64,000 nt of DNA from Cliona cf. orientalis. Its lineage: Eukaryota > Porifera > Demospongiae > Clionaida > Clionaidae. The notes beneath the pieces were generated by a model. It was not told the origin of the DNA. It saw only the letters and a program-made list of their open reading frames with translations, and did not search any database. The translations under genes were made by a program, and so were the position numbers. The DNA lies in the NCBI GenBank assembly GCA_963930775.1, contig OZ005698.1:1928501-1992500 (forward strand), written 5' to 3'. This document shows, one piece after another, positions 39,663 through 60,956 of the stretch (the first letter of the stretch is position 1; the number at the start of each line of letters is the position of its first letter).

Positions 39663-41084
39663 TCACTGCTGCCAATCATTATCATTTACCCCTTTCATAA
39701 ACATACCCTAGAGACTAACCCTGCTACCCATTGGCAACCCATTTCTAAACCCCCTAGCCCCTCCCATCCATGCCATGTATTATACATCATATGCGCACTT
39801 GATTGCGTCATAACCACGCATCAGTAATCTAATTAGGATTACAATTTTGATAATAATGAGTCCTGACTGTGACTTATCAAACGTGCAGGTGGAAGACGTT
39901 CAGACAGTTGGAGTGAAGCTAGGATGATGGCTGCTAAACCAAAGATGAGATATTGTTGATTTCTTCCCTGATTTACACTATCAGTATGCAGTATAATATA
40001 ATAACAATATAATAATGAATATGGATGTTTTAATTTCCCATCTTGTCCGTTGATGATGCTATATTTAAATCCCTAGTGGCAATTAACTTTATGTTTTACA
40101 AATAATTATTGGGTAATTGCGATGTAATGAACACTTGACCATATCCCCAGTAGCTGCATGATTGTAATACTTGTATAGGTTACATTACAAGGTGCAGGTC
40201 TTCAATAGTCACACAATTTTTTATTTTGGGCACAGTTGGAGGATCAAAGGTCACATTTAACAACTTAATCAACTATTGATGAATCGAAACCTTATGCTGA
40301 GGCTGCCATTTACCTGCTGGAACTCAAATTATTAACCAACTGCTGTGTCACAGGGCTACTAGGACTCAGGACGTAAAATTACAGCATGTATGCACCAACT
40401 TTTAGCACAATTCAACAGGAAACCATCTCATAATAAGGCCATCACTTAGTAAAGTTGTTCCCATCCACCCCACAGGCTATTCTGTAAGTAGCTTGCATAT
40501 GATTATGCAAGTTACTGAATTGTATGTCGGCTAATAGCAGCAGAATAATGAATATCCACCACCCTGCACGGATTGCATTTGGTTGCGAATCCAGGGATGG
40601 GAAACGAGCAGAGTAAGGTAGGGATTTTCGGACGTCCTCTCACTGTCAGTATTATAATACCCAGTGGCTATTGATCCGGCCGACCTTTTCCAATGCTATA
40701 GATCCGGCAGATGTCACATGATGTATGTACGTGCGTATAGCGTGTACTTGGTATAGATGACTTAAGGCGTGAACATTTAGCCAATTATGACCACCCAGAG
40801 GTGTGACCAGGCACGACTCGCACCTTTGCTGCTGCCTGAAATGTATTAGTCGTATATTGGAATAGATATACTCTCCGTTGCTACGACTTGATAAAAATCG
40901 AGCAGCACCCTAGAGCCGGCTGATGGCACATGTAGGGAGTACCGAAATGATGTAATGCATAATTATTATAATGTATACGTACGTAATGTGAATTATGTAT
41001 AGAATGTATGTAAAAATAGATATGTATCTATAATTATCATGATGTAACGTATTAAATTTTGTTAATGGTACACCATACAGTGAT

Positions 41085-41310
41085 GGAGAGCCTGGCGGGA
41101 CTGTAACACAGTGGGACGGTAACAGTAAGACAGTGGGACAGTAAGACAGTATGACAGTGGGGCAGTAAGACAGTGGGACAGTAAGACAGTATGACAGTCG
41201 GATAGTATGTGAGTGGGACAGTAGGATAGTATGACAGTGGGGCAGTAAGACAGTATGACAGTCGGATAGTATGAGTGGGACAGTGGGGCAGTAAGATAGT
41301 GGGACATGAG
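41085..41310 (-). repeat. Left subterminal tandem repeats of outer element
   Basis: About twenty ~10-11 bp units of the type CAGTAAGACAGTGGGA / CAGTATGACAGT, in opposite orientation to those near the right end. They produce long accidental ORFs on the minus strand (repeats of LSYCPTV), which should not be annotated as protein. Confidence 0.85.
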
Positions 41311-43842
41311 ACAGCAAGACAGTAATTAAGATAATGAGAGTAAAGCAGTAGGCCAAAGACTTCTCCTTTGGAGACTATAAACCCTTAAGTAGGTGACAGT
41401 AATTTAAAGCAGTAAGACAGCACAGCTATATAACAGCAGTGCTAAAGTGTGCAACTAAGATCTAGCAGTACTATGATATCTGTACATGACAAGTTTGTGG
41501 CAACATAATGAAATAATTAAGCATAACAATTAAGCCTATTTTATAGCAATACTTGGTTCTAATGAAGTTAAACAGTTAATTGACTTTGGGAGTGGTAAAG
41601 CCAAATGAATCCAGTGTGTCGTGATCATCTGACTCAAGCAAAAAGCGGTTGTACTGAGACGCTGTCATGTATGTTGTGTCTTGTTCCTTAAATTGGACAA
41701 TGTAGGCATCCCATTGTTCTTTTCCAATTTGCAGCTGCACATCCTTATTCCCATCTTTGGGAACTTGTTTGTAGTAAACTACCCTGCGTCTTTGTAACTG
41801 ACTTGACAGTGCCTAACCCTTCCTCCTCCAATTTCTTTATTTCTTGAAGAATTTCTTGTGCAGAAGGCCTCTGTTTAGTTGTCATGTTTTTGATCACGGT
41901 TCTTGGAGTAACGAAGGGCCCCTTTGTTAATAAAATGATGTGGCTTAATGCTGGCTTAGTTGTATCCTTAGCCTCGATTGACATGCTTTTGCTACATTCC
42001 AACGTCTGAAAAATAGTAATAGTAGCTATTACATAGTATTCACCACCAGCACAGGATATTTTTAGCTTCTATACTTTTTCATATGCCTGACATCCTTGGA
42101 AGTATTCTGTCAAAGCAATGGCCATTTCAAGATTTTCATTAATTCTCTATGATGGTGTCTGGAGCTATTGGTATCTCATCATCAGCAAGATTATCCAAAC
42201 AAGCATTGATCCCATCATAAAGTACTTTCATGACTCCACTAAGTCTGAATAATAATGACAATTAATTTTATCATGAGCACTTACACCAATTATATAGCAG
42301 TGATTAAATTTTATTTAGAGGTTGGGGAGCATAGGGATTTCCTACTCCTGATTTGAGTTTCCCCTCCCTGGATTCTCCTAATCATACATAGCGAATAGTA
42401 TAGCACGCGCAGTAAGGGATCATGTCCTATTCCCCCCTCCCAACAAAGTAGCGATTAGCTACCAGTCCCATATCCTTCGAAAAATTCCCACTGATGTCCC
42501 CTTCGCCTTCAAACTGGCTATTCATCTTCCTTGTGATTTCGTTAGAAAATAGGCGGTACTGCTCCTTAGCAGGAGAGAATGTGTATACTCTGTAGCTACA
42601 TCATGGTGCCATCGACTTATAGTTGAATATGGCTTTGCTAGTGACTTTAGGTCATACTGTTCAAGTTTGCTACACCACTCCTCCACCTCTTCTTCTAAAA
42701 GAAGTTTAGGACGGGGAGAACACAACAGAAAACGATCTACAAATCCATCGTTGCATTCAGTAAGCCCAGGATATAGGCGTTGGATAAAGGGGGTGGGCTG
42801 TATATAGAAACCCCCCAATGCATAAGCACACTTTCTCCAATTCCTGCCTTCCCTCCTGCTTCTGATAACCTGGTTACATAATATTATTATTATGTGTTTA
42901 GTTACGTATGTGTTTGATAATACTTTTTTCAATAATTAAATCAGCTTTAATATGTGCCTGCCTATAATATTATATAGAACACTCCCTGTATGGTCACCTC
43001 AATTACTCAGTGTGTGCAATGATTTAATAAATTAATTATCACATAGGCCACTTTAGTAGTACTAATGGCTCTTAATGGACTAACTATTACAGCAACATTA
43101 CTGAATAATTTTATTGGGAAAGTTTCAGAGTGAGTAGGAGATTACTACTATTGTACCATAGCAAATGTACTTGCCTGTGATGTTGGTCCACTTCCCGGCA
43201 TCGTAGAGTCTACAATTATAAAGTTGACGTTCTCCACTCAATTCGAGTTGTCGTTTCTGTATAATTATCGATAGCTACCACTGCAAAAAATATGTCATTT
43301 CCTAACACTGGAATGGGTACTAAATCTCTCTGAAATGTGAGTATTCCTGATTGATTTCTGTATAGTTCATCACCTCAGGAATGGTCACATTTTCTATTGA
43401 AATTAAATGTACAGGAATGTGCACAATTCAGGTGCAGGAAAAAATCAGGCAATTTGAAGTTTCGTGATGGAAATTACCAATGAAATTTAAAATTTCCTAT
43501 CATATTCATTCACATGATACTTGTCAAAACTTGAAATTTCATTATTAATTCCTTGATCATGATATTTATCAAAATTTGAAGTTTCACAATGGAAAATTTG
43601 CCATGAAATTCAAAAGTTCCTAGCATGATTATTAACAGGAAACTGATCAAAAGTTGAAATTTCACCATGATTCCTTAACATGATACTGATGAAAACTTGA
43701 AATTTTACCATATTTCCTTCATAATAATAATAATATTATGATACTGCCCGGATTTCAAAATTTCCTATGATTCATGATAACATAAAGAATCTTGAATAGT
43801 TAACCAGATTGGTCAGCAAAATTCAATTCATGTCTTCAGAAA

Positions 43843-45670
43843 TTATTTCTCAAATCCCCAAAATGTGCTAGAAAACTCAGCAGGTTTTGACCTGGTTGAT
43901 GTCTCACCCTGTATCCGAGGCAAAGTCTGCTGTGTGGCTCGCTTCGATTTTCCCCTCTCGTTTATTGTCGTAAGCTGGCCAAGGAATTTATTCACTTTAG
44001 GGTGACGCCAGGGAAGGGGCTTGACAAACATCACTTGTCTGGAAGTTCCATCTGGGAGTTCCTCACTTCCACTTTCCTCACTGGACATGAAGGATTTGAC
44101 TAAGATCTCCATCCATTTCGTCCTCCTATCCTCAGGTATATCTACCTTCGCCAGTGTTGCCTTTCTGGCCGCCAATTTCTGCAATAGATAATTTCCAGGT
44201 GCATACATGGTTAGCAGCAAAAAACGATGCACAACTTACACTAGCAATTCTGTTCCTCCTCCTCTGTACCTGGACTTTGTGCTCATATGTTCCCTTCTCC
44301 TCCTGAGCAGATTTTTCTGACATTGACTGATAAAAGCGTCTGGCAGCAGCTATAGTAATGGTAAACATGGTATGTACAACAGTGACGGGAGAGGAAGAGA
44401 CTACGCAAAAATGTAAGTGCACATGCACAGCCAAGCTCAAATAACACGAAAGTTTAATTTTTTCTCACCAGTGTGGTAAAGGTCATCACTCTATTCAATC
44501 ACTAGCAGGGCAAATACTAGTGGGACATACCTTGAATTTGACTGACTGTCACTGATCCATCCATTGCTTTAGTTTCAGTTCTAACTTTCTTGACTACTGC
44601 TTGATTGGATGCATCAGAATAGCGCTTTCTATAATATCATGACAAAATCAACATGTACACAACATTAGAGACATTGACCTTACTTTAAGTCAAATCCGTC
44701 AAATTCCTGCGCTGGATCATCCAATAGGCATTTGTAAACATCACGAACTAAATGCTAGAAACAAAAAAAAAATGCAAAATGATAGCTATCTATCAGGATT
44801 AATACAGCGGGAAGCATATCCAACACTCCCTCTCCCAACTGGTATTCACATCTAGTGTCACTCTTGAAGTACTGTACGTACGTACACATTAAGCACTCCT
44901 AATTATTCAGCACCCTTTACCAAAATTAATGATCTATACTCTTCGGTAAAGGTCGTCACGTGTAAATGCTATTAATAGCACACTACTGCATGCTAACATT
45001 TCCTGTCTCCACAAAAGCATCATGCATTAATCCCTGTATAAGCTATTTGACTTACTCTGACACTCGTAGGCACTGAAATTTTAGGAGTATCACCTCCAGA
45101 AGTAGTCACAGACGAAGAGTGGGCCTTTTCTTCAAGCTGTTGCAGTCTTTTCTCTACATCACCGAGACGATCATTGGTCTTCTTCACCTGAGACAAAATT
45201 TCAAGGATGGGCCCATTTAACGACTGCGTTTCAGATTTCCCCCCATCATCTCGATTTGTTGGCGTCAACCTGTTGTCAGCATTACTGAACCCATGCTTCA
45301 TCGCACTGAGTGTTGCCGATGGAGTAGATGAAGTGCTCTTCTTCAGACTGCTACCTGGTACTGTAGGAGTGGTTCTGGCACCACCACTGCTTGAATAGTT
45401 CAAACGCTTGGGTACTACACTGTTAGATTTGGTACGTGCACGGCTATGACTTGATGTATCACTGACTCTTTTTTTCCCAGCAGCATCACCAGGATCATGT
45501 TGTTTAAGTGGGGGTTCAGGATTGGACGTATCACTACTTTGGCTATCTTCATCCTCGAGCTTTTCTGGTGAAATATCATTTTCAGTATCAAATTCACCTC
45601 TTTCCTTCTGAGCCAGATATTCATAGTAAGACTGTGAATATTGAGCTTGTGTAAAATCTTCCAAACTCAT
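43843..45670 (-). CDS. CACTA second protein (TNPA-like), five exons
   Basis: Five minus-strand exons join in phase: 45670-45056, 44754-44684, 44628-44531, 44349-44240 and 44178-43843, giving about 410 residues. It begins MSLEDFTQAQYSQSYYEYLA, has a Ser/Pro-rich middle with a basic AGKKRVSD stretch, a coiled coil (KKTNDRLGDVEKRLQQLEEK), DDPAQEFDGFDLKKRYSDAS, a basic QVQRRRNRIAS, and a C-terminal LPWRHPKVNKFLGQL segment. This arrangement (basic, coiled coil, then a PWRxxKV segment) corresponds to the second gene of animal CACTA elements, whose plant counterpart binds subterminal repeats. It is intact, unlike the transposase gene. An ATG six codons upstream is an alternative start. Confidence 0.75.
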
Positions 45671-45897
45671 CTGCATGTAATGCATATACAGTCACCGAAC
45701 AATTACATGCAAACAAACATACAAAGCAGTGTGCACACACACCCATAACCTATATGTATGTTCACAAAGGTATCGATATTTACTCTAGTCCATGCATGCA
45801 TGAACACGGACACACACACACACAACAAGTACATACGTGCACACACACACACTTGTACACAAAAACACATAATATTATATATGCACACACATACATA

Positions 45898-46310
45898 ATA
45901 GTTATCTGGGGTGCATGAGATGCATTTACTGTCAGATAACTATTTTGTTGGTGATTGATCTCTGTTCATCATTGGCCTACGTAATGATGACCCACCCCCT
46001 TCCCATAGCCAGCAAATTGCCTATAAAAACTTTGATTGCTAGGCAACTACCAACAAACGCGCACACACACACACATACAAAATACATACACACACACAAA
46101 CCATAGACATACACATAATAGTTATCTGCCAGTAATTGGGGTTCATGAGATGCATGGTCGAATGCACCCCAATTACTGGCAGATAACTATTTTGTTGGTA
46201 ATTGACCTCTGTTCATCATTGGCCTACTTTATGATGACCCAACCCCTTCCCATAGCCGGCAAATTGCCTATAAAAACTGGTTGCTAAGCAACTACCAACA
46301 AACACACACA
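45898..46310. promoter_or_regulatory. Central divergent-promoter region, duplicated palindromes
   Basis: A ~210 bp unit is present twice (45898-46105 and 46112-46310): ATAATAGTTATCTG, CAGATAACTATTTTGTTGGT, GTTCATCATTGGCCTAC, CCTATAAAAACT and GCAACTACCAACAAAC. In the second unit AGTTATCTGCCAGTAATTGG is followed by its complement, giving a long hairpin. The CTATAAAAAC is TATA-like. The region lies between the divergent TNPA-like and TNP2 genes, so it probably contains promoter elements; this is inference. Confidence 0.5.
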
Positions 46311-46369
46311 CACACACACACACAAAAAAAACACACACACAAACACACACACACACACATAAAAGACAG

Positions 46370-46408
<39 letters not shown>

Positions 46409-46520
46409 ATAGACATACACACACACACTGTCATGCATGTTGCATTCAAATACAGCCATGTTTTCCCTATAAATCTGAGGCTAGGAAAAAAAAAAAGCTT
46501 TAGCTGGGTCTGGTCTGCAT

Positions 46521-46701
<181 letters not shown>

Positions 46702-47138
46702 CTGGGTCATACCTCCGATTGGTGCCTTCAACAGTCAGTCAAGGGTGACACAGATCAGTCAAAATCGTCAATGATATGGACCACACAGGTAGCACACGCG
46801 CAGGAGACACAAACTGACTTGTAGCAGGGTACGAGATTATAGGGTTCTTGCAGAGCGCTCGAGCACCAAAGAAGTCTACGTGATTCTTGCCCGCCAAAAT
46901 ACATATCCCGCCGGCGCCAAGGTCAATAAGCCCGCGCGCGCCTAGGCCCTGCCACAGTGCACATGCGCAATGTTTTAATAAGAGTAAATCCCGAATAATT
47001 AACTTTACGCGATATGTTTTGGTGCGCATCATATAGAATAATCGTTGTCAATATGAGTGCAAGGAAGAAACCACGAGTTTCTGCTGCCACCCACCGAATT
47101 TGTCCTCACTGTGACAAAGAATTGAACATTAAAACATA

Positions 47139-47631
47139 CACTGTGTCTACCGTACCGGCACCGGTACCCAAGATTTAGTGCTTGGAGTACCGGCAACTAT
47201 ATTATATAGCTATAGATCCCAGCCCCCGAAGGGGGCTGGGATCTATAGCTATACTAATAGCCACTATTAAATACTGAGCGCTAGACGGCTAGTGAGGCTA
47301 GTAGCGCGTGGTTGGGTTTCGGTAATCGGTAGGAGACGAGGGGGGTTTGGTTTTAGGGTATGGTTGTTGACCGAGGGTTAGTATTATAGTGACAAGGTGT
47401 ATAAAGGTGGCAAAAAACGGTATCCAGCAGCGGCGAGCCGGGTTGGTACAGTGGGCTAGGGCTGGGACTGGTGGAGCGGTGGTCGTGGGTTCGAATCCCG
47501 CTTGGATCTTTGGATTTTTTTTTTTTTTTTTCTTCCACTTTCGAAAATTTTCTAAGTTTTTTGGCGGGCTATTCTGCCGGTACTCGAAGCGCTAAATTAT
47601 CAGTACCGGTGCCGGTACGGTAGACACAGCC
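47139..47631 (+). mobile_element. 493 bp insert with 9 bp TSD (Mutator-like MITE)
   Basis: Flanked by TAAAACATA at 47130-47138 and 47632-47640. Inverted ends: CTGTGTCTACCGTACCGGCA at the left versus TGCCGGTACGGTAGACACAG at the right. A 9 bp duplication points to the Mutator/MULE superfamily. It contains a perfect palindrome (TATAGATCCCAGCCCCC / GGGGGCTGGGATCTATA, 47208-47249) and a tRNA-like sequence. Removing the insert with one duplication copy restores the transposase frame. Confidence 0.8.
47435..47508 (+). tRNA. tRNA-like sequence (pseudogene or SINE head)
   Basis: A B-box/T-arm GTGGGTTCGAATCCCGC follows an A-box-like GGTTGGTACAGTGGGCTAGG; the ends GAGCCGG and TTGGATC can form six of seven acceptor pairs (two G-U). 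A T-run starts at 47517, so polymerase III could start and stop here. The anticodon arm is not convincing and the spacing suggests a long variable arm. It more likely is a tRNA-derived SINE promoter carried in the 493 bp element than a working tRNA. Confidence 0.4.
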
Positions 47632-50600
47632 TAAAACATATCGAGCTCATCGAAGGCTATACTTTGATTCTCAGTCTAAATCTTGGCTAATGGCTGGCAA
47701 GTATGCTCAAGAATCCAAAGCCACCAGCTTACCATCCGCACAGGACGAAATTATTGATCCACCTGGTGACGCTACTGACGATGAAACCAACCCAGAAACT
47801 GATTATATGGATGTCGATGTACTTTTAGAGTGTGATCATCAATCTGAGCTTGACTCAGACCATGCACAATGTTTGCCAAATAATCTGCTACCTAACGTAC
47901 AGCCACATAGCCATATCACTAATCCATCTGGTAACGAAGCAGACATTGAACCTCAACCAGGTAGGACCATATTGTATGCATATATAAGCTTGAAAATTTA
48001 GCCATACTAGAATTGTTTTGTATTTATATATGATTTAGAGTATTGGTTGGAGTCTGATAAAGATGTTACGGCAGACATTGAACCTCCCCAAACGTTGGAT
48101 GCTGTGATTGCAGCCACGAACAGTGAGCAAGACAAGTCTAGTCGAAGTATTGTCTGGTGGATAGTTCTATTCGTCAATGTATTTCAAACCCTCCACGTCA
48201 TATCTGACCAGGCAATAGCTTGGCTACTGAAATTTTTATGGGCACTATTGACGTTTCTGGGTACATACTCACCGGTCATAGCCAAAGCCTCTAAATTTTT
48301 TCCATCATCACTGTATTTGCGGGATAAGTTAAACGCATGGAAGGACAATTTTCTGCGTTACGTAGTTTGTCAAAAGTGTCACACATTATACAAATATCAA
48401 GAGTGCATTGAAGTAATAGGAACAAGACGCAGGGGGAGATTGTGCTCTCACTGTTCATTTTCGAATGTTTGTGGTGGACTGCTGCTCAAAGAAGTTATAA
48501 CTCCTTCTGGTACCATCACGTTTTATCCTCATAGTGTCTTTTGTTATAAGAGTGTCATTGATGCTATGCAAGAATTTGTCAGTAGACCAGGATTTGCTGA
48601 TACTTGTGAAAGTACTCGAGATTTGCACACTAGACCCGGTATTTGTGATGTTTATCAAGGTCAAATCTGGAAGGATTTCCTGAAAATAAATGGAAGGGAT
48701 TTTCTCTTAGCACCATATGTATATGGTTTTATGTTAAATGTTGACTGGTTCAAGCCCTTTAAACATCAAGAATATAAAGTTGGAGTGATCTATTTGGCGG
48801 TACTTAACTTACCGAGAGAAATACGGTACAAACGAGAGAATATTATTGTTGTTGGAATTATACCTGGGCCGTCTGAACCTCCTACTACCATAAATAACTA
48901 TTTGTACCCTCTCATGACTGAACTACTCAAACTATGGAATGGTGTACAGTTGACTATTCATGGGAGGGGTCGTCATATTGTCCGTGCTGCTCTATTGAGT
49001 ATTGGTTGTGATCTCCCTGCTGCTAGAAAAACCTGCGGCTTTCTAAGTTATGTTGCCAATTTAGGATGCTCTCGCTGTTATGTCAATTTTTCAGGGGGAT
49101 TTGGTCGAAGAAACTATTCAAATTTCAGGAGGGAGTCATGGAAGCCTCGAACGAATGCCCAACACCGAGCTGATGTTGAGAAAATTAAGAAATGTAAAAC
49201 ACTAACTGATAGGTTGAAAATGGAGTCTGAACTAGGATGTCGGTATTCAGTATTGTTGCAGCTGCCATACTTTGATCCAGTGCGAATGCTGCAATTGGAT
49301 CCAATGCACAATCTTTACCTTGGTACATCTAAAATGGTGATTCGTAAGGTTTGGATTGAGCGTAATATTCTGCCTCCAGCTAAAGTAGCGATAATCAATA
49401 GACGTCTAAAGCGAATACATGTACCAATCGAAATTGGCCGTGTTCCTGTGAATATACAGTCTGGTGACACATTCACCGCAGAACAATGGATGAACTGGGC
49501 CATGTATTTTTCAGTGTATTGTTTATTTGAGCTGCTAACTCTAAATGAAATTGAATGTTGGAGGCATTTTGTGCTTGCGTGCAGGCTTTTATACAAGAGA
49601 AACATAACTGCAGAGGATGTAACTGTATCTGATGCACTTCTAATAAAATTTTGTTCCAGAATGTGCCGACTGTATGGTTGCCGAGTTGCCACCCCAAATA
49701 TGCACATGCATGGACACATGGCTTCCTTTATCAAAGATTATGGTCCAATCCATGCTTTTTGGCTGTTTTCCTTTGAACGCTACAATGGTCTGCTGGGTAA
49801 GCAGCCAAATAACAACAGGGCAATTGAAATACAGCTTATGAGACGGTTTTTAAGGGATAATGTACACTTAAATCTACTCCACGAAGGACAAACACAAGAA
49901 TTTCATCAAGATTTTTATGATGTTGTTGTAAGACATGCACAATCGTTTGACTCTATGAGCTCGAGGGTAGCTACCACTGATGCTGATACTTTGTACTCAA
50001 AGCCTTCCAAGTTTAATATGATTACATTAGGACAAGATGAACTACAAGTCCTACTCTCCATGTATTGTGAGCTGTATCCACAACACAAAGATAAACTACT
50101 CCTGGATGGATTGCCGAAGTGTGCTAAGAAATATAGTCATATTGCATTAAACAATAGCAAGCTTTCATCAAAGGATTATGTACTTGCTGAACCAGTATTC
50201 ATGTTCCCTGGTGACAGTGAAGTAAAGATTCGACCAGCAAAAATCGTCCACTTTATTATGCACTCTCTATTTATTGATGATGAAAGGAAATGTACTTTGT
50301 TTGCAGTTGTTCAATGGCCTTTGAACCATCCACGTCAGAATGCAATGGGCAAGCCAGTTGAAATCTGGTGCAAACATCTAAATGAGCCCTACATCAAGAA
50401 TCTTTTTGTTCCAGTTGAAAGAATAGCTAGAAGAGTGATGTATGCGTATGAACCTATTGATGGAGAAGAAGTACTTGTTGTTATTCCCATTGTTAATTAG
50501 TTCATAGTTAGGCATTATTAAAAATTAAAAATTTGAAATTCAACTTATAATGTGTATACAAACGTCAAGAAAGGCATGGAAATGTCAACTTTCCTATGAA

Positions 50601-51097
50601 AATTGTCAACAGGAATTCTGAACCAGGAAACTTAACTCATGCTGACTTAATTTCCATATTTTCATGATGATAATTATGTTAGGAAACTATTGTTAGGAAA
50701 TTCCAAGAAATGTCACTTAAACACTATATTTCTGGATGAAGATATGTAAAGGATATCTTTTTTAGTAAACATCATGAATGCTGATTAAACTTGATATTTC
50801 ATGAATACCATAAATGCAAGGGAAATCTTGACAATGATTGGAAATGTCATGAAACATCCAAAAAATTCGGTGTTTCATGAATGACGATAGTTTAAAGGAA
50901 ATGCTCATCAGGAATTCTCATTAAATTTGCTGAAATGCCAATTTTCCTATGCTATTTCCTAACAGTAAACTTGATGATAAATTTCCTGTTTGTTTTCTGA
51001 TAAGAAAATTTGGTGGAAATCTGCTTTTTTTTCCAGTGTACGAGCTAGATCTTGTTACACCAATCCGGCATTATTTCTCACAATGAAAAATAATAAT

Positions 51098-51160
51098 TCA
51101 TCATAATGCCTACAGTTTCGACTGCTATACTGCAGTCTTCCTCAGGGCAAAAAATGCAGA
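51098..51160 (-). ncRNA. Hammerhead-ribozyme-like motif
   Basis: On the minus strand the core CTGAGGA (51145-51139; CUGANGA) is followed by a 6 bp stem GACTGC-AGTATA-GCAGTC and then GAAAC (51119-51115). After a one-pair stem III (C-U-G) comes a U-A cleavage position at 51112-51111, and GGCA pairs with the TGCC just before the core as stem I. Penelope-like elements are known to carry hammerhead variants with very short stem III in their terminal repeats. One extra A sits between core and stem II. Activity is not demonstrated. Confidence 0.55.
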
Positions 51161-51239
51161 ACTACAAGTGTATATACAGTTCTTAAGGTACCATTAAATT
51201 GCGTGGGCGTGAGGTGGGGGATATGACACCTAAACCACA

Positions 51240-52620
51240 TCAAAGTCATTAGTGAGGTGCATGTTGTGTAACCACGCCCTTTTAATTGCACAGGTCTCAG
51301 GGGTGTGGCTGCTAGAGCCGGAAGTGTTCATTTAATATCCTCCATGGACCGGAAGCCGAGCCGGAAGGGAGGGGCCAGGCCACGCCCAAAACAGCCCCAC
51401 CCTGTTCCCCAAGGACCACCATTCTCAATCAAGTGCCTACTAACCACCGGATGTCCACCGGAAGCCCACAATCAATCCCAATTAAAACACACAGCTTCCT
51501 CAAGGCCAAAACACACACAAACACTTGGAGGCCGTTCTGCCACACCGCCCACGCAAGAGCTCACCTCATTTCCTGTGTGGGCGGAGTGACAGCACGTCAT
51601 CGCAACCACATCCGCTTCAAACCATCGTCGGCTTCCGTCCAGCCGTACAGGCCCCTCGATCGCACCGCCGTACAGTGCCTCATTAACAGACATGGCCTCA
51701 CCTTTGACCTCCTGCCACGCCCCCAAAGCCTCCTCGCGGGGTTCAAAGGTCACCACCGCTTCCGGGACACGCCCACCTATCGCCGCAGCCACGTCCCTGG
51801 CCCCGATGTCCAAGCACTGGCCCGTGAAGCCACGCCCAATCGGAAGCAATAAAACCTGCATTAACGCACACGCACACACTCCACACAGTGCCAGGAACAC
51901 GCCCACATGCTTAATTAGGCCTAATTAGCTTTTTTTTTTTTTTTTTTTAGTCGTTGCGGTTAATAGTTAAGCAAGAATGCTTTGATCTTGCTTTGATGTG
52001 GGCAATTACCGGCCTTTTCTTCAGGGGCCACTTCCGGTCGCTAATTACACGCGCATAATCATCCCTGGCCGATTCTGGACACGCCCACCTTCGACCAAAA
52101 GCACTCGTATGGCCTCTTCGGCCACGCCCCTTCACGATTCGCTAATTGAATTAGCCATTCCTGACGCTCACGCCCACGCAATTAAATGGTACCTTAAATA
52201 GTCAGTCCTACGGTGGGCGTGTCCGACGCTCCTTGGGGCGTGGTCGACGCTAACCGCGCCGCGCCTGCTTCTTCTCAAGGATGGAGTAGGTCTCCTGACT
52301 GCTGGTGGTGGTCCTTCGGGTGGAGTCGGTTGTCGTGGAGCCGGTGACGTGGTAGGAGCCCGTCGTCTGACTCTGAGCGGTGGCCTGTTGTCTCTTGGCC
52401 GCGGTTCTCTCGGGGGGTGTGGCTCGTGGGGCGGCTTCTTCCGAGCTTGCGAGATGGTCCTGATCCAAAGGGGGGAGAGCTCTTTTCCTTCATCCCTATT
52501 CATCTTCAACCCCTTTGGAGCCAGTCTGATGTATACTGCTTCTTTCACTTTCCTCTCCTGCAGGTCTGTCGCCGTGTCCAAGATCTCAACGTCGTCCCAC
52601 TCTATCTCATGGCCGGCTTG
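51240..52620 (-). other. GC-rich 3' part of the Penelope-like element
   Basis: Markedly more GC-rich than flanking DNA (CCACGCCC / GGGCGTGG repeated), open on several frames of both strands, with a T-run at 51929-51949. The upstream end (52581 to about 52260, minus) continues the retroelement protein as an Arg/Pro-rich tail (KKPPHEPHPPREPRPRDNRP). The remainder to 51240 has no recognised protein; the long ORFs on both strands probably reflect composition. Confidence 0.5.
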
Positions 52621-53350
52621 CCAGGTGTGCTCAGCTACCGTATCTGATCTAATTAACGCGCCATGAAAAAATAATTACGAGTGCTGGGTGGCGCGCCATT
52701 AGAGCCTGAAAATTATCCTTCGCGACCAGGTGGCGCGCAAAATTTGTACACAAAAGTAGCTATAGGGACGCGTGGGTGGGCGCATTTAAATAGAGCGTGA
52801 AAATTGCCCTTCAGGCCAAGGTGGCGCATCTATTAGAGAGGTGCGTTAATTAGATCAGGTACGGTACTGCAGATCTCTCGAAGGCTGCAAGTCTGCAGGC
52901 TGCCTTGTGCTCCTTCATCCTAGCTGTTAGACTTCTTCCAGTTTCACCTATGTAAAAGTCACCACAAATGCACTTAATCTTATACACAATACCTGGTCTT
53001 TCTTCCGGTGGAGTCGGGTCTTTGAAGTTCGTCAGGATCCGGCCTAGGGTCTCTGTTGTCCTAAACACTGTTCTGATATTGTACTGTCCTAAGATCCTCC
53101 TTATCTCCTCACCCAGGCCTTTTATATATGGAATCTTTGCTGTTGACAGTGGCTTGTTTTCTTCATCGTCATCCTCACTCTTCTTTTCTTTCTCTTCTCG
53201 GTGTTGGACCCTGTATTTCCTCACAAAACCTTTGGGGTATCCATTGCATTTCAGCACCCCCTGTACATGATGTAATTCGTCCTTCAAGAGGTGTTGGTCC
53301 GACGTCAGGTCATGTGCTCTCTTCATCAGTCGAAACTGTAGGCATTATGA
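52480..53350 (-). pseudogene. Penelope-like protein, GIY-YIG domain, split by MITE
   Basis: Minus-strand frame from about 53350: FRLMKRAHDLTSDQHLL, VLKCNGYPKGFVRKY, an acidic EEKEKKSEDDDEEN linker, IPYIKGLGEEIRRILGQYNI, RTTETLGRILTNFKDP, then the GIY-YIG core GIVYKIKCICGDFYIGETGR and LTARMKEHKAACR. The MITE at 52638-52864 interrupts it after ERSAV; the frame resumes with AEHTWQAGHEIEWDD and EAVYIRLAPKGLKMNRDEGK. This is the C-terminal endonuclease end of a Penelope-like polyprotein; the reverse transcriptase is missing (5' truncation). GIY-YIG enzymes nick target DNA. Confidence 0.8.
52638..52864. mobile_element. MITE, TIR CCGTAYCTGATCTAATTAAC, TA duplication
   Basis: CCGTATCTGATCTAATTAAC at 52638 pairs with GTTAATTAGATCAGGTACGG ending 52864, TA on both sides. 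It sits inside the GIY-YIG gene; removing it and one TA rejoins SAV and AEHTW in frame, direct evidence for insertion at TA. GGTGGCGCGC motifs recur inside. Confidence 0.88.
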
Positions 53351-53428
53351 TGAATTATTATTTTTCATTGTGAGAAATAATGCCGGATTGGTGTAACAAG
53401 ATCTAGCTCGTAGCTATCGATAATTATG
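53336..53428 (+). repeat. Inverted copy of the retroelement tail
   Basis: Reverse complement of 51039-51125 plus 43261-43278 (shared CAGTCGAAACTGTAGGCATT, AACAAGATCTAGCTCGTAGC, TATCGATAATTAT). It lies at the 5' side of the retroelement. The junction to the ORF falls on the shared TTTCGACTG, a microhomology. It preserves the CACTA target without the insertion. Confidence 0.8.
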
Positions 53429-54513
53429 ACTACCCAATCAAGAAGTTCGCTGAAACGTTTCTGTATAATGTCAAAGAGGGCCGACATCTCCTCATGAGCA
53501 CACAGATCTAGAGCTCTGCCCTCATGCAACTGTAAATGATTGAACAGCCCTCTTCTGGTATAATCATCAACGATAATTCCAGCCATTGAACAAACTGAAA
53601 CAATATCAATCACTTGCGAGAATTCAATAAAAGGCAATTATGACCAACCTCCTTTTCCTAAAGGATCAATAATTGAGGGACGGAATGCCTGGCTTTTTCC
53701 AGACCCAGGTTGATCCAGACATACAGTGAACAGGTTATAATTAGGTGGTTCGCTGTATATGTTTCACGAACAGATATCTGTGACTGTGGACCCATCAAAG
53801 CGGCAGTGGTGGAAAGAGCTGTCACACTGAAACAAACTCAGGAAGAGTGTTATGAGCTTTGGCCACAGTAGTGAACCAGTCAGCAATTTTCTGGGGCATA
53901 CACTGTTGTCACGGAAATAGCTGCTCTTGGTCACAACGAAGTATCTTCCAGGCACCACATCAGATACAGTGGATGAAAATTTCGGTCGCTTTGGTGTTGG
54001 ACCAGTTGAAGATGTACATGTGGCCATGTCTTCCTGATACTAAGGAAAATTATTATAGCTAGGCTGGTGTTTCTACAAAGAATGACAGTGTCTTACAAGA
54101 TCAATGAAATCCTTTGCCTTTGCCTGTGAGAACGGTGAAACTTGTTTTGATTCTCTGCACTATCCTCTTGATACAAGCATGATAGCAAGTGTGAAACTTT
54201 TTATAGGCATTATGTGCATGTGCATGGCTATAGTGCATGGCCACTATCAGAACTTAGTGGTAATATACATACATAATTATTAGAGTATGTGTACAGATGG
54301 GGCTAAGAGAATGCATTGACTCAAACCACTGACATGGATTAGGTTGGCTAACATCTGTGGTTGGAAGGGTGTGGATTAGGGTTAAGGCCAGTGACCTTGT
54401 TCTCAGTGCGCTGGATGTACGTAGTGAAGTTTGTGCATGTGGGATCCAGGTCAGCAGGCCAGCCTCTTGTGGCCAGATTTGTTTTGGTACTGGTTGACGT
54501 TAAAATTAATAAA

Positions 54514-54919
54514 TGTGACCTGCTCTGAGAAAAGGGACCACTTGGGATATTTCATAAAAAATTGAGTTTTTGGCATTGAATGATAGCTATGTGTGCTGAA
54601 TCCAATGGCGCAAGTTTCATGAAAAAATATTGATCGTTATGGCCATTTTTATACACTGGGGTAGGTATATTCGTTTTTCAGAAAATGTGCATTTTCAATT
54701 AAATTTTGTATTAAATTGTATGTGTCTGAGCAATTATTTGCGCCCTCATCGATAGTTTACATAATATTGCAACTACATAACCAAAGCATATCGATATGAA
54801 GCCAAAACCCTACATTTTCTGGTAGAGTAAAAAACAGAAAAATGAAAAATATTAATTTTTAGCTATTATTAGAAAATGAAATTTTATCCCGAGTGGTCCC
54901 TTTTCTCAGAGCGGTCACA
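54514..54919. mobile_element. MITE, TIR TGTGACC(T)GCTCTGAGAAAAG
   Basis: TGTGACCTGCTCTGAGAAAA pairs with TTTTCTCAGAGCGGTCACA, and the inverted repeat continues with GGGACCACTTGGGAT / ATCCCGAGTGGTCCC. TGTGACC ends are shared with the element at 33993 although interiors differ. It lies in the intergenic region between the two divergent genes of the outer element. No TA duplication is visible. Confidence 0.75.
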
Positions 54920-55354
54920 TTTATGCCACTTGCTGAATCATTAAATTTTGGGCATTGAAATAAGTCCACTGGTTGTGGCCATAAACAGATGTGTGCTAGA
55001 TAAGTTATCCTCTGTCCTCAGTTCTCCCTTATCTTGGTCAGCCACAGTAAGCTGAGAGTACGTGAAATCCCAACCTTGGTACATGCATGGATTATGGAAT
55101 TAATCCTTGAGGTTCAGCTTGAATAGCAAACTGGTCTGATAGTGGTAGCCAGTGGTACAACCTATTTTAAGGACACTCTGGGGAAGGGGTGGGCTGTGGG
55201 GACACCATTGGTCACTGGAAAGCTCACACTTTCAACTTGCAGAGGAAAGAAAAGTTTAATTAACCTGCATGACTTGCATGTGTTTGTTGGGTATTACAGT
55301 AGCTGCAGCTGACTTCAGTCCAGTTTCACAGGATCAATACCATCATGAGAGTTT

Positions 55355-58300
55355 TTGTGCTGCTATCAGTTATCGTACGTACTTCATGTGAGTGCTGGAC
55401 GATTGCACCCCAAGTGGTGTAGTTTGATATCAAAGATATGCAAGGATTTTGAAAAGCACCCTTCTCCACCAAAGCTGATATCTCATATTGAATGCACTCA
55501 GGAAGTACTGCAAGAATCATTCTTACACCTTCTACCACCGCTGATCATTTGGGCACCTCTTGAACAATTTAAGGAAATTTTTTCAAGTGGTTTTAAATGT
55601 CCAAAGTGTGAATTGACAGACAGTGTCCTCTTTGGTTACTCATGGAAGGATGGTGTTGAATTAGAGCGTTCTGAACCACAAAAAATTCATGGACAAGATG
55701 GGATTGTGCTACTTGTTGGAAGGGTATATATAAATGTTCAAAGAAAGGACATGAAGTTGTCAGCTATCACCCAGGTGTCCTAGAGCAAATTAATGCCAAA
55801 TCATTAATTATTTTCCGTTTGTGGTTTAAAACTGGCTATACAGTTGATCTGATCAGATTTGTAGAAAGTATGATCATCTCTGGTTTAAGATTGTCTGCAA
55901 TTAAAAAATTATTGGATTCTACATGTTTAGAACAGTATTCTTTCCGAAGAAAACAATTTACTGAAACTGTTCAACATTTGTGTTCAACACCTGCCACAAC
56001 TGATTTCTCTTCATTCGATAATTGGAAAGCGCACCTACCAACACTATCACCATCAAGACATGCAATAGCAGGATGTTTTTTGTCATCATTCTGGGAAAAG
56101 GAGAAAGTGTATGAGAAACACATGCAAGACACATCACTAACTGAGGAGGATGGATGGTTATCGTGTGATCATACCTTTGCATCTGCCGGTAAGTTAAGGC
56201 ACACATCAACAGCATTAAAATTAATTTAAATACATGTATCTGTAAAGGGGTAACTTTTCAGAAGGTACATGTCCATAATATGCAAGTATTACAGTAAAAC
56301 CGAAGAAATTAGATCTGTTCCAAGGAAGTACATAGAACTCTAGATATGTTGTCAATACGAACTAACCACAGAAATTTGCTTGTGGTCTACCAGAATGCCA
56401 CAGTGCTACCCACCTCAACTAATCATAACTGAATGCATGACGTAACACTTATCTTACATATACAGGAAATATAGGTATGACAAGAGAATTTGATTCACGA
56501 TGGATCACACAGTATGGTGCTCTATTCTGTGTCCTGAACGGGAAGGGGCAAATTGTTACTTGGAAATTATTGACAAAGGATTTAACCTTCAACAACATTG
56601 TAAGTCACTTAAATGTGCTACGTGAATGTCTACAAAAACAAGGGAAGCAAATTGTTGAATTTTACATCGACAATTGTTGTGCATGGAGAAATTTGCTTCA
56701 AAGTGTCTACGGAACTGGTTTACATGTACGTTTAGACATATTCCATACTGTAAGAAGAGTGAGTGATAAAATACCCAAAAGACATCCCTTGCAGCATGAA
56801 TGTATGAATGAGTTTTCTATGGTTTTCCGGGATGCCACCGACAATGGCATTGAGAGAACAAAAGCTACCCCAGAACCAACCATTCTAGTCAGCCAGCTTG
56901 ATAAATTTGTAACAAAATGGAAAAACGTAGAGTATAATGGATGGTCAGTTTTGGTCCTCTGTGGCAATAAAAGAAACTGACAATTTAAGAAAATACATGG
57001 AGAGGGGATATTTATCCGGAATCAAGCCCGGAAGAGGGACAAATAGAAATGAAGCCCTTCATAAACAGCTGAATAGAATAGTTTCAAATTCTAGGTATGG
57101 TATTGAACTAGCATATGCTCTGTTATCTACGATCTTTTTCAAACACAATGAAAAAATTCAGGCGAGTTTGGAGCACAGAAGAGAAAGGGCGGTTGAAGAG
57201 TATGAAAGTATTTTTTTTAACAACCTGCAATCCCAGAGTAGTGTTGAGCACTTTGGATTAGAATGGTCTCACACAGTTAAAGCAGCACCATGTGACACAG
57301 GATCACATGTACAGTCTCATCCCCAGTTATGTTTATCTGACTCCTCTTATGATCAGTTTGCATCGAGGATAACAAAAGACTGTATGGATGCTAGTCTAAG
57401 AATAAATCTGGATCTTGTTGATGCAGATGATAACGATTACAGTAGTGATGAGGAGGATAGTAGATATATTATACCCATATCGGCATTAAAAATAATTCTG
57501 TTAAAAGCTCTATCTTGGTATTTCGTGTATGAACATTTATCACGGTGCTCCAAAACATCCAAAATTTCTTACAAAACTCTTCCCTTCATGAACTCTGCTG
57601 TTTCTAAGCTCAGCAATTCAGACCCATTTACTGAAAATATCTCCGAAGCAGATTCTGTACTATCGCCAATTGAAAATTTAGAGCAATCACACACACCCAA
57701 CATGAACCCAAGTATGCACAGATTGGAAAATGTATTAAAGTCATGGAATTTCAAGCGTCTCCCAGTAAATGGTGATGGTAACTGTTTATTCTACGCTGTA
57801 GCTTATTCCTTGCTCTGTCGAAAAAGAAGTGACCATACAAATCAAGTTTGACTTCAGAACCGACTGCTCTCAGCCAATAAAGCACCTTGCAAAAAACTGA
57901 GGGAAGCAGTTGTCCAGGAATGGATTGGGGAAAACACCATGTGCTATCAGTCCTTTCTGACACATCAGCAGTTGAAAGAGGAAGCTCACAGGTTTCTTCA
58001 AGATGGTGAATTTACAGGTGATGTTGGAGATCTTGTGCTACCTGCACTTGTGAATGTCTTGGCAATACCAATGGCAGTGTTCACGTCTGCAGAAAATATG
58101 CCAGTGCGATCCTTGCTTCCTATTACCTCAATGGTAATGGAAAGTGAACCGATCTTCCTGGCATATCTTCACGAAGGTCCAGGTCACTATGACGCTGTGA
58201 TCAGAGATGATAAGGAGAACATAGAGCCACTTGAACTAACATCAGGTACTACTAAATGCACATATGGGAGAAAGGCTACAAAAGGTTTTCATGTGCTTTT

Positions 58301-58788
58301 ACGCAGGATCGCTACAGTACTAGGTGTCCATGCTTCAAAGCAAATCAAGGGTGCACTTCTGAGTGTCGATGCAAAAGATGCAACAATCCTAATGGTGCAA
58401 GACCAATCTTATCTAATACGACATCAGGTCAAAAAAGGTGAGACAACGATACAACTCACAAATTCAAGAACTTAAGGGGCGAAAGACTGCCAAATTTATG
58501 CAAGATGTTGGTGAAGGTATCAACACTCAAGGAAGCCCGAGTCAGTTTGAGTACCTCTTAATCGGTGCAATTATCCAGTATTCCCATCCAGATATTCAGG
58601 ACTGGGAAGACATTAAAAATAATAATATAGACCCTCTCTTTATTGCCAATAACTACAATGCTGTAAAGGTACTTGCAAAAATCTTAAACCTTGCTCTACC
58701 CATATTTCATAGATCAAATATGGAAATTTATAGTGCATTGAAACAGTACCAATCACAGTTTGAAATATTCTATAAATTGCATACATAG
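55355..58788 (+). pseudogene. MULE-like DDE transposase fused to OTU protease
   Basis: Read in order with small breaks: a zinc-ligand segment (FKCPKCEL ... YKCSKKGHEVVSYHPG), LRLSAIKKLLDSTCLEQYSF, the catalytic-type LSCDHTFASAG (exon end 56187, donor GTAAGT; next exon 56466) GNIGMTREFDSRW, IVEFYIDNCCAWRNLLQSVY, LDIFHTVRRVSDKIPKRHP, and LSGIKPGRGTNRNEALHKQL. Then comes an acidic linker and an OTU domain: LPVNGDGNCLFYAVAYSLL (Asp/Cys of the catalytic centre) and GPGHYDAVI (catalytic His), followed by a Cys-rich tail (DRYSTRCPCFKAN, CTSECRCKRCNNPNG) and a helical end. D...D...E spacing with DxTF and FHxxRR suggests a MULE-like RNase H fold. OTU enzymes are deubiquitinase-type cysteine proteases. 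Breaks: 2-nt slip ~55724, shifts ~56940, ~58288, ~58435, TGA at 57849-57851. The N-terminal start is not resolved. Confidence 0.7.
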
Positions 58789-59386
58789 TGGATAGTACAC
58801 CACTTGACTTGGGATTAAAGTCAACTGCTTTCTATATTATTATTCACTTGTATATTTGTTGCACATTTTGTCAATGTCACTGTCATGCTAATAATAGCTA
58901 AATTATACCATGTGGGGAGGTAGGAGAAGCTGGTGATATTGAGTGGTGAATAGCTACTGAGATCGCTTTTGAAAACCTTTTGAGGCAAAATACTTGTGGT
59001 TATTTTTGGCTGTGAGTTTATTTTTGGGTCAGAAGCCATCAGTCCAAATCCTGATTCACTATCCCATAATCTTGCTCATATTGTGTCATCCTTCAAATTC
59101 TCTATCACTGTCCTATAATATTATTACCGTCTTACTGCATGTACATGTCCTATACTGTCCTACAATCTCACCTTCCTATAGTGTCCCACTGTCCTACTGT
59201 CCTACTGTCATACTATCTGATTGTCACAGCTACTGTCTTACTGTCCCACTGTCATACTGTCCTACTGCCCCACTGTCATACTGTCCCACTGTCCTACTGT
59301 CCCACGGTCATACCATCCGATTGTTATACTGTCTTTTAAGTTACTGTCCCACTGTCTTACAGTCCCACTATCCTACTGTCCCACTA

Positions 59387-60551
59387 GGGCAAGTGGAAAC
59401 GGAGGAAACGGAAAACGGAAACGGAAAGCTGAAATGGAAAACTGAAGCGGAAATCGGAAACGGAAAAGCTGAAATTGGGAAGTGGTCGTCAACATTCGTT
59501 GCGCTAATGGCATCTTTTGCGCATGCGCGATCTATTTGGGGCTAAGAAATGGCATTGCCTAGCCTCGTTCCCAGGCCCCTGCCATGTTTTCAATGTCTTG
59601 CGTGCGTTGAAAAAGATCGGGGAGACTGGGGACGAGGCTAGCATTGCCAGTATCTTTCTCTCGACATCTATCAGCATAGCCTGACAGCTGGATACAAGAT
59701 TCCTGGCTCGACCTAAGCTTGAGGTACTAATAGTGACCCACTGACGAGAGATAGAGGTCTAACAGCCACACCATCTCCCATGCACCGGGTGAATAGTTAC
59801 TACAAACAACAGGAAGACTCCAGTATGGCACCCAGACTCTGGGCCAGAGTACAAGATGCTGAATGTTATAGAGACCAGGCGGTAGAATTTTGAAGTTGGT
59901 GAAGGAAGTCCAGAGTGACAAACTAGATATCAGTACTCAGTGGCTGAGAGGTGATTATGGCCCTTGTTCAACGTTAAAAGTGGCTCAAAATCTGCTATTA
60001 TTATTCAATTTATTACCATGCTAAGCAGTAAACTATCAAGTAAAGAATCACACTGTAACTACTTCAGGCTTGGTACAGTAACTGTTGATGAGCCTAAAGG
60101 CTCACAAAGTAGCTATACGCTACAATCACAACTTGACATTAATGGAGCACTTACTGAATCAGATATATATCATTACAGGAGTCCATTAGTAACAGTCTCG
60201 TCGCCAGGCCCCTAGGGACGAGGCTAGTAGTAACATTAACTAAATTTTTGCTACAATTGCACTGGTGGTGCTATAATAACTTGTCATGGCCCTCAGATAA
60301 TGATCACCGAAAATACATTAATATCACTTGGATGTTTTACAAGGTCTTCACACTAGCTGCAGGGAACAAATAATACATAAACCTTCATTAATTTTCTTAT
60401 GCATGGCGAGATATCAAAGATACTAGCTCAATGCCGTTTATTTTTCTGACGACCACTACCAATTTTCAGCTTTTCCGTTTCCGCTTTCCGCTTCAGTTTT
60501 CCGCTTCAGCTTTCCGTTTCCGTTTTCCGTTTCCTCCGTTTCCACTTGCCC
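59387..60551. mobile_element. 1.16 kb element, 9 bp TSD, GGAAACGGAAA repeats
   Basis: GTCCCACTA flanks both ends (59378-59386, 60552-60560). Termini GGGCAAGTGGAAACGGAGGA and the complement ending CACTTGCCC extend ~110 bp as tandem GGAAACGGAAA/GCTGAAA units in inverted orientation, ending with AAGTGGTCGTC. Nine-base duplications are Mutator-like. It contains CTAGCCTCG hairpin copies at 59561-59640 and 60197-60230. No transposase is coded. Confidence 0.8.
59561..59641. repeat. CTAGCCTCGT hairpin
   Basis: CTAGCCTCGTTCCCAGGCCC at the left and GGGGAGACTGGGGACGAGGC at the right form the family stem; the spacer has TTTTCAA / TTGAAAAA. A short single-stem relative (TCTCGTCGCCAGGCCCCTAGG ... GACGAGGCTAG) is at 60197-60230. 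Confidence 0.7.
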
Positions 60552-60956
60552 GTCCCACTATCATACTATCCAACTGTCATACTGTCTTACTGTCCCACTG
60601 TCTTACTGTCTCACTGTCTTACCGTCCCACTGTGTTACAGTCCCACTATCTTACATTCACACTGTCCTACTGTCCTTCTGTCCCATGTGCACTGTCTTAC
60701 TGTGACACTGTCCTACTGTCCTTCTGTCCCACTGTCTTACAGTCCCACCAGGCTCTCCATCAATGTATGGTGTACCATTAACAAATACATTACTGTAACA
60801 TCAATTAGACACATATCTATTTATACCTATACATTCTATACATAATTATACATTACATCGTTTCGGTACTCCCTACCGTGATGTGCCATCAGCCACCCTC
60901 TTCAGATGCAGGGTATGTAGCTTGTTCAACATGCTATAGATCTACAAGTGCATGAG

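Follow-up and report, generated by a model that had tools for sequence, protein, structure and literature searches.

A DNA transposon family of the sponge Cliona cf. orientalis pairs a DDE transposase carrying an OTU-like domain with a divergent DUF3987 gene

A 64,000-nucleotide stretch of the Cliona cf. orientalis genome (assembly GCA_963930775.1, contig OZ005698.1; C10:1928501-1992500, hereafter the window) contains a terminal inverted repeat (TIR) DNA transposon that holds two divergent genes between its ends: a DUF3987 gene on the minus strand and, on the plus strand, a DDE transposase gene that continues into an OTU cysteine-protease-like domain and a Cys-rich region. Coordinates are window positions unless prefixed by a contig. 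The genome has 29 homeodomain matches, five of which fall between 7.76 and 7.92 Mb of C12, in keeping with an animal source. An initial annotation of the window had proposed such a pairing, and the two genes do co-occur between these termini elsewhere in the genome: four further copies, all with 8-bp target duplications, contain both genes or their remnants. DUF3987, a helicase-like ATPase of prokaryotic mobile DNA, also neighbours a second, dissimilar transposon group in this genome, the CxC5/KDZ (Kyakuja-Dileera-Zisupton) loci. We put at about one in two the probability that the element is a cut-and-paste DNA transposon in which DUF3987 would serve as an ATP-dependent transposase helper and the OTU domain would remove ubiquitin.

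Common ends enclose both genes

The inverted termini and inverted tandem repeats described in the initial annotation are real, and the ends, both formed by inverted GGCTGATGGCACAT (start 40918, stop 60894), lie at most 7 bases from the borders it gave. Inside them, the 8-bp arrays are of near-uniform polarity, opposite at the two ends: GACAG outnumbers CTGTC by 18:2 in the left 1,500 bases of the window copy and is outnumbered 1:14 in the right 1,500 bases, with corresponding counts of 35:2 and 0:26 in the copy on contig C1 and 33:0 and 2:29 in that on C8. The first 501 bases of the originally annotated span have 111 matches in the genome, many of which are short copies with paired ends.

The ends were sought in 18 family stretches and three distant relatives. 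Both ends are present in 13 of the 18, a single end in four (C1:9.26M, C19:5.28M, C18:1.75M, and C10:8.61M, in the stretch examined), and neither was seen in C1:22.15M; the three distant relatives have no such ends. The target duplication, which the initial annotation proposed to find, is exact and 8 bp long, with no fixed sequence, in nine of the 13 copies with both ends (C1:10.67M, C8:9.09M, C1:33.08M, C6:1.29M, C17:3.2M, C13:6.52M, C8:8.38M, C6:1.59M, and C7:3.04M). In C1:26.46M, the duplication agrees at 7 of its 8 bases; one terminus of this copy consists of a bare end of 14 bases that abuts the transposase's upstream sequence. None was found at the window copy itself, which is flanked by CTAGAGCC and ACCCTCTT, or at C6:5.80M and C19:5.26M, where the pairing of the ends is uncertain. 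A blind scan for an 8-bp duplication with an adjacent 12-base inverted end returned a single match in each of the C1 and C8 copies, at the predicted ends, and nothing in the control of 20 shuffles per copy; at eight other loci, two of them KDZ loci and six of them stretches that contain distant OTU transposases, the same scan found none, although the sequence examined there is perhaps too short. Long inverted arrays of longer tandem units flank the distant OTU transposase at C7:1.90M (L070, approximately 1402-2951 and 7622-8943), and array-built inverted ends may for this reason be a trait of the wider OTU transposase family.

Gene content was determined by tblastn with exon blocks (Table 1). 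Both genes lie between the ends, as a divergent pair, in the window, C1:10.67M, and C8:9.09M. The C17:3.2M copy contains DUF3987 and a transposase reduced to its N-terminal part and last 25 residues, with the core missing, and C1:33.08M contains remnants of both genes; all four of these non-window copies carry exact 8-bp duplications. In C1:22.15M, only the tail of DUF3987 is left.

The element is smaller than the 20 kb initially described, as uninterrupted copies in the same genome measure 9.2 kb (C1:10670399-10679567, pieces L021 and L022, a close copy of 9,169 bp) and 8.4 kb (C8). About 11.4 kb of the 20-kb window copy consists of later insertions (43266-53457 and 59387-60551), without which it measures approximately 8.6 kb. 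The C1 copy corresponds to window positions 41097-43265 followed directly by 53458-59386, with matches of 85-95% in the four main blocks; because it joins the equivalent of 43265 straight to 53458, the 10.2-kb segment between them is a later insertion, one that splits the DUF3987 gene in two.

Table 1. Features of the transposon copy in the window
Feature	Position	Strand	Basis and remarks
Whole TIR transposon copy	40918..60894	.	19,977 bp with both nested insertions counted; GGCTGATGGCACAT at each end
Left subterminal array, 8-bp units of GGGACAGT type	41097..41325	+	Repeat and polarity analysis
DUF3987 block DUF_e, 3'-most	41597..41984	-	tblastn, alignment
DUF3987 block DUF_d	42472..42818	-	tblastn; same block in C1 copy matches PF13148, E=5.3e-7
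DUF3987 block DUF_c, second half, cut off by nested insertion	43176..43265	-	tblastn, comparison with C1
Nested insertion foreign to the element	43266..53457	.	tnp2 open reading frame and 86-base inverted repeats inside
DUF3987 block DUF_c, first half	53443..53592	-	tblastn, alignment; low end overlaps the insertion by a few bases
DUF3987 block DUF_b with P-loop	53659..53822	-	tblastn; C1 copy matches PF13148, E=2.9e-8
DUF3987 block DUF_a, N-terminal	53831..54027	-	tblastn
Transposase, N-terminal part, CxxC pair to first presumed catalytic aspartate (SCDHTF)	55403..56190	+	tblastn, motifs
Transposase, remaining DDE core (YIDNCC, LDIFH, GTNRNE)	56462..57209	+	tblastn, motifs; preceded by inferred intron GTAAGT..ACAG
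OTU cysteine-protease-like domain (GDGNCL ... GPGHY)	57699..58238	+	Frame broken near 57849
Cys-rich CXC region and C-terminal tail	58239..58785	+	MSL2-CXC/tesmin matches in relatives
Right subterminal array, inner part, ACTGTCCY units	59182..59385	+	Repeat and polarity analysis
Second nested insertion	59387..60551	.	1.2 kb; inverted ends of GGGCAAGTGGAAACGG (105 bases, 94%); divides the right array in two
Right subterminal array, outer part	60552..60745	+	Repeat and polarity analysis

Both genes have been maintained by selection

The C1 and C8 copies represent two lineages in which synonymous sites are saturated and both genes have remained under purifying selection. The proportions of synonymous and nonsynonymous differences (pS and pN) are 0.80 and 0.22 over 428 codons of DUF3987 and 0.80 and 0.27 over 851 codons of the transposase with its OTU and CXC parts, and synonymous saturation with low pN holds in all nine blocks, that of OTU included. 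At the DUF3987 d/e junction and at the junction of the two transposase blocks, intron-like donors fall at the same codon in the two lineages; at the DUF3987 c/d junction, GT in C8 corresponds to GC in C1. Ratios between closer copies are nearer one, as is expected for dead copies: 0.56 for DUF3987 and 0.42 for the transposase between the window and C1, 0.70 and 0.49 for C17, and 1.7 and 0.94 between C8 and C1:33.08M. Both genes appear to be long-standing components of a single element that selection has maintained, and the conservation of both despite saturated synonymous sites between the two lineages makes DUF3987 look like a functional part rather than cargo.

Domains of the two proteins

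The Walker A protein that had been likened to DUF3987 matches PF13148 above the cut-off in both uninterrupted copies. The joined C8 exons reach E=2.3e-16 (60.4 bits against a cut-off of 27); in C1, two single exons pass (2.9e-8 and 5.3e-7) and a third is below (15.9 bits). The P-loop reads GPPGSGKS in C1, GQPGCGKS in C8, and DQPGSGKS in the window, and the first half of block DUF_c contains what we take to be a Walker-B-like stretch. The C8 counterpart of block DUF_e has no Pfam match at E≤0.05 but can be aligned to the C-terminal region of other DUF3987 proteins. The best PHROG family for the element's DUF3987 is DNA helicase (E=2.1e-5), and phage helicase and primase families were matched; searches of phages and plasmids yielded no match to the DUF3987 of the OTU elements. 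The element frames that were scanned contain no primase, polymerase, or HUH nuclease domain, so that the primase part of the helicase/primase-like partner initially suggested is not supported.

Transposase motifs were counted by a simple pattern search in six frames of 17 stretches (16 distinct loci, as L016 and L070 overlap). The DDE patterns SxDHTF, [YI][IV]D[ND]CC, and GT[NT][RK]NE occur in 15, 11, and 13 stretches, respectively; the C8 copy, which falls outside the second pattern, reads FFIDNCC. These motifs resemble the MULE motifs DxTF/Y and TNxxE. The motifs DGxC and GHY, presumably the catalytic Cys and His motifs of OTU, are both kept in 13 of the 17 stretches, with the pair incomplete in C1_33.08, C17_3.2, C1_22.15, and L019; C1_27.09 reads GVGNC at the expected Cys position.

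Other families were not recovered. The OTU transposases scanned match no KDZ or CxC domain and, by hhalign, show no similarity to KDZ (E=0.47). Pfam scans found no integrase family at E≤1 or 10 and no SWIM or PHD domain, and the ZSWIM1-3 RNaseH-like model, a relative of the MULE model, matches L037 below the cut-off (E=0.019). Capsid, polymerase B, and packaging genes of the Polinton or virus-like kind are absent from the frames scanned, a subset of the element's frames. Two scans of IMG/VR gave 16 and 62 pattern matches, among which no transposase relative was confirmed, and none of the 48 pattern matches from a scan of prokaryote genomes was confirmed; phages have no match to the OTU region. 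The PDB search returned nothing convincing for a KDZ-type DUF3987 (best E 0.22) or the DDE core (best E 0.39).

OTU transposases with a readable start have a signal-peptide-like hydrophobic N-terminus (MRFFVLLSVIVLYVSAG in C1 and MMKVVLIVLLLSQVYSS in L068) that mostly precedes a conserved tryptophan. Among the eight N-terminal peptides compared (L021, L024, L025-L026, L029, L068, L035, L036, and L037), of which two are identical and one is without Met, the 11-residue peak hydropathy exceeds 2.2 in seven. Such a terminus is odd for a nuclear enzyme, and an upstream exon is possible.

DUF3987 recurs beside CxC5/KDZ transposases

The genome contains 80 PF13148 matches, which form 48 clusters. Proximity, defined as a distance within 7 kb, was counted for all 80 DUF3987 and all 45 CxC5 matches, the merged KDZ matches, and the 84 stronger of 143 MULE matches. 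CxC5, the cysteine cluster of KDZ transposases, lies within this distance of 25 of the 48 DUF3987 loci. On C1, 19 of 36 DUF3987 loci are near CxC5, compared with 0.5 on average and never more than 3 in 1,000 circular shifts. All 26 pairs checked (25 with CxC5 and one with a KDZ match, in L072) are head to head, as in the OTU element. In L071, for example, the DUF3987 match (2.9e-33) has a neighbour that matches CxC5 above the cut-off (3e-12) and KDZ below it (4e-4).

An alignment of five KDZ-type, two OTU-type, and one phage DUF3987 sequence shows that the KDZ and OTU types are 19-23% identical and that either is 16-23% identical to the phage relative; one phage record was matched by a KDZ-type DUF3987, at 25%. 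Because the two types are no closer to each other than to the phage relative, two recruitments or a very old split are indicated. A recent transfer of DUF3987 from the KDZ loci of this genome to the OTU elements was rejected on the basis of this identity and of the P-loops, which are altered in the KDZ type (L071, L072, L073, and L074; for example, KKGEKKT, NKGQKKT, and HKGQKKS) compared with GPPGSGKS in the OTU type. A third group combining a SWIM-MULE with DUF3987, suggested by L073, was likewise discarded: the DUF3987 of L073 shares 84% identity with its counterpart in the CxC5/KDZ locus L075, and CxC5 is matched at a distance of 6.8 kb, so that the simplest explanation is a MULE inserted within a KDZ element.

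Two further features of these loci were observed. A third gene of approximately 235 amino acids, with no Pfam match, lies between DUF3987 and the KDZ transposase in L071 (3298-4005) and L072 (5852-6556). Contig C1, which accounts for 37.5 of 216.8 Mb, holds 36 of the 48 DUF3987 clusters, a strong enrichment.

Observations at odds with a general helper role

A number of findings weigh against the proposed reading of the element. Two of the seven transposase copies with these ends, C1:26.46M and C6:1.29M, are without DUF3987, with no credible match even at E≤10. The distant OTU transposases at C1:34.09M, C2:11.76M, and C1:27.09M have no DUF3987 in the 9 to 9.5 kb examined, and the genome-wide PF13148 list has none near those at C7:1.90M, C7:7.03M, C12:3.22M, and C18:4.07M. 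Since these more distant OTU transposases have no DUF3987 nearby, the pair represents one branch of them; given also the two same-end copies, DUF3987 in cis is not a requirement of the whole transposase family. On the other side of the association, no transposase of the four kinds considered lies within 7 kb of 20 of the 48 DUF3987 clusters, which may be decayed or sited with other elements. Furthermore, because the KDZ-type P-loop is altered, ATP use by DUF3987 may not be general.

Of the copies examined, not one preserves the two genes with fully intact frames. In the window, both are broken, and the transposase frame is interrupted; in C1, DUF3987 blocks a and b are in different frames, as are the core and OTU parts of the transposase, and in C8 the DDE core is disrupted by a stop together with a frame change.

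The domain assignments are also affected. Only one of six relatives scanned passes the Pfam cut-off for OTU (PF02338/PF10275), namely, L035 (PF02338, E=1.2e-5, 26.2 bits against 23.3; C65, 26.7 against 24.3); C1 (20.5 bits), L036 (14.9), L018 (19.4), and L068 (14.3) are below it, and the L037 frame scanned has no match. The CXC matches in relatives are weak (E from 7e-3 to 3e-4) and all below the Pfam cut-off. None of the 143 genome matches to PF10551 (MULE) at E≤1 falls on any OTU transposase. The hhalign match to the MULE DDE domain is marginal (E=0.014, 100 columns, score 24.6), with one of 60 column-shuffled profiles scoring higher (30.6) and the reversed profile scoring 16.8. A MULE kinship of the OTU transposase is therefore weakly indicated, by the motifs and one marginal profile match with no match to PF10551.

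A proposed mechanism and its rivals

We infer every biochemical step of the proposed mechanism from sequence. Using its Cys-rich parts, the transposase would bind the inverted ACTGTCCC-unit arrays, which offer many sites near each end. Its DDE core would cut at GGCTGATGGCACAT (GGCTGATGG) and join with an 8-bp stagger, of which the outcome is seen and the enzyme is predicted. As DUF3987 recurrently adjoins a transposase and is conserved, an ATP-dependent helper role is suggested: it may load onto target or donor DNA, remodel the transpososome, or open DNA, on the pattern of IstB, MuB, and TnsC in bacteria (PMC11208146). The OTU domain might deubiquitinate the transposase, possibly protecting it, or act on chromatin or repair factors at the break.

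Two simpler explanations of the pairing fare poorly. If DUF3987 were passive cargo, captured from the host or another transposon, its absence from C1:26.46M and C6:1.29M, which have the same ends, would be readily accommodated; strong purifying selection over saturated synonymous divergence and the recurrence of the same head-to-head layout with another transposase group largely refute this possibility, which we regard as very improbable. An accident of nesting within a 20-kb composite might have been suspected, given that nested insertions make up over half of the window copy, but it is refuted by the uninterrupted 9.2- and 8.4-kb copies that hold both genes inside one pair of ends with target duplications.

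The more substantial rivals assign DUF3987 a different role. As a replicative helicase, it could serve to copy an excised or nicked element, by peel-and-paste or as a circle, with the transposase only ending the cycle. Prokaryotic DUF3987 replaces helicases next to primases (PMC5862659), and the element's protein matches phage helicase and primase families; however, a primase, polymerase, or HUH nuclease is missing from the scanned frames, and TIRs with 8-bp duplications fit cut-and-paste, which makes this route rather unlikely. Somewhat less likely still, the OTU and DUF3987 products could act mainly against host silencing or defence, with OTU deubiquitinating chromatin or restriction factors and the ATPase acting as a decoy or remodeller. 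TET/JBP genes, for which such a role has been proposed and which are common to unrelated fungal transposon groups, KDZ among them, provide a precedent (PMC12730594), and DUF3987 is similarly common to the OTU elements and the CxC5/KDZ loci; nothing observed here ties DUF3987 to silencing, however, and the relatives described for it serve replication in mobile elements. The helper role in cut-and-paste transposition is the reading we prefer to both.

A broader proposition can be put forward tentatively, as one that we consider possible and somewhat short of probable: at least two unrelated animal DDE transposon groups, OTU/MULE-like and CxC5/KDZ, might each depend on a head-to-head-encoded DUF3987 ATPase, a counterpart of the bacterial transposase-ATPase pairs, either recruited at least twice from the replication toolkit of prokaryotic mobile elements or deeply inherited. 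Eukaryotic cut-and-paste transposons are usually described as having one transposase, sometimes with a DNA-binding helper. If the proposition is true, the presence of a conserved and selected ATPase partner in two groups would allow target choice, or a coupling to replication, to be tested in animals, and it would link eukaryotic transposons with the replication modules that prokaryotic mobile elements carry. The OTU fusion, shared with Ginger1, lends further support to the view that transposition involves the handling of ubiquitin. Gene models for DUF3987 and OTU that are annotated as host genes in animal genomes may be explained in this way.

Relation to known systems

Several traits of the element are already known from other transposons, namely, OTU on a DDE transposase, accessory genes shared among groups, and 8-bp duplications; the element is a new family, and the surprising part is the recurrence of DUF3987 beside a second transposon group. 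The closest precedent for the OTU fusion is Ginger1, a TIR DNA transposon in which several families have a DDE transposase fused C-terminally to an OTU cysteine protease, and whose OTU and Ulp1 domains have been proposed to activate DNA repair (PMC2836005). Ginger1 differs in its Gypsy-integrase-like DDE core with GPY/F, its 4-bp CCGG/CCGT duplications, and its length of 2.6-7 kb (PMC2836005), whereas the present element has 8-bp duplications, no integrase match in Pfam scans, a CXC region, and a second gene. The combination that seemed unfamiliar in the initial annotation is therefore partly familiar, through Ginger1; for DUF3987 in any eukaryotic transposon, as for OTU on a MULE-like DDE core, no report was found among the matches listed in the literature searched, a set outside which subscription papers and Repbase Reports fall.

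The 8-bp duplication lies within the 8-11 bp reported for MULEs (PMC6446971), from which the element differs in its transposase, unmatched by PF10551 and without SWIM or PHD in the scans, and in its OTU, CXC, and DUF3987 components. The term OTU is absent from the main text of that paper and of one from 2026 on arthropod MULEs (PMC13359780). Rehavkus, a MULE outgroup, has a minisatellite near one end, which recalls the arrays here, together with a 9-bp duplication and a PHD finger (PMC6446971), compared with 8 bp and no PHD match in the sponge element. Duplications of 8 bp are also known from Zisupton and Dileera (PMC12730594), and the CxC5/KDZ loci of this genome share the head-to-head DUF3987; the OTU transposases nevertheless match no KDZ or CxC model and have no hhalign similarity to them, and the DUF3987 proteins of the two groups are approximately 20% identical. 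TET/JBP accessory genes are likewise common to several fungal transposon groups, including KDZ (PMC12730594).

Among prokaryotic systems, IstA/IstB of IS21, MuA/MuB of Mu, and TnsB/TnsC of Tn7 combine a DDE transposase with a dedicated P-loop ATPase (PMC11208146); these bacterial AAA+ ATPases are likened to DUF3987 by functional analogy only. Prokaryotic DUF3987 proteins, found in the PrimQH and All3500 primase-helicases and in phage satellites, do share the Pfam domain and are predicted helicases of mobile elements that replace other helicases beside primases (PMC5862659). In the sponge, by comparison, DUF3987 is an intron-containing gene beside a DDE transposase, and no primase domain was found in the scanned frames.

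Nested insertions in the window copy

The first insertion is flanked by the 14-base CGTTTCTGTATAAT at 43252-43265 and 53456-53469. It contains an open frame of 829 amino acids (48011-50500) of the tnp2 type (Transposase_21; CACTA/Plavaka-like; PF02992, E=4.4e-12). Inverted repeats of 86 bases, 100% identical and 2.2 kb apart (51039-51124 and 53327-53412), perhaps delimit a very recent nested element, given that they are perfect. A minus-strand frame at 52850-53344 appears by eye to be GIY-YIG endonuclease-like and has no Pfam match. The second insertion is flanked by the 9-base repeat GTCCCACTA, which is less telling because it lies inside a tandem array. A stretch related to this 1.2-kb GGGCAAGTGGAAACGG element follows the array in the C6:1.29M copy (L029, 1389-2903).

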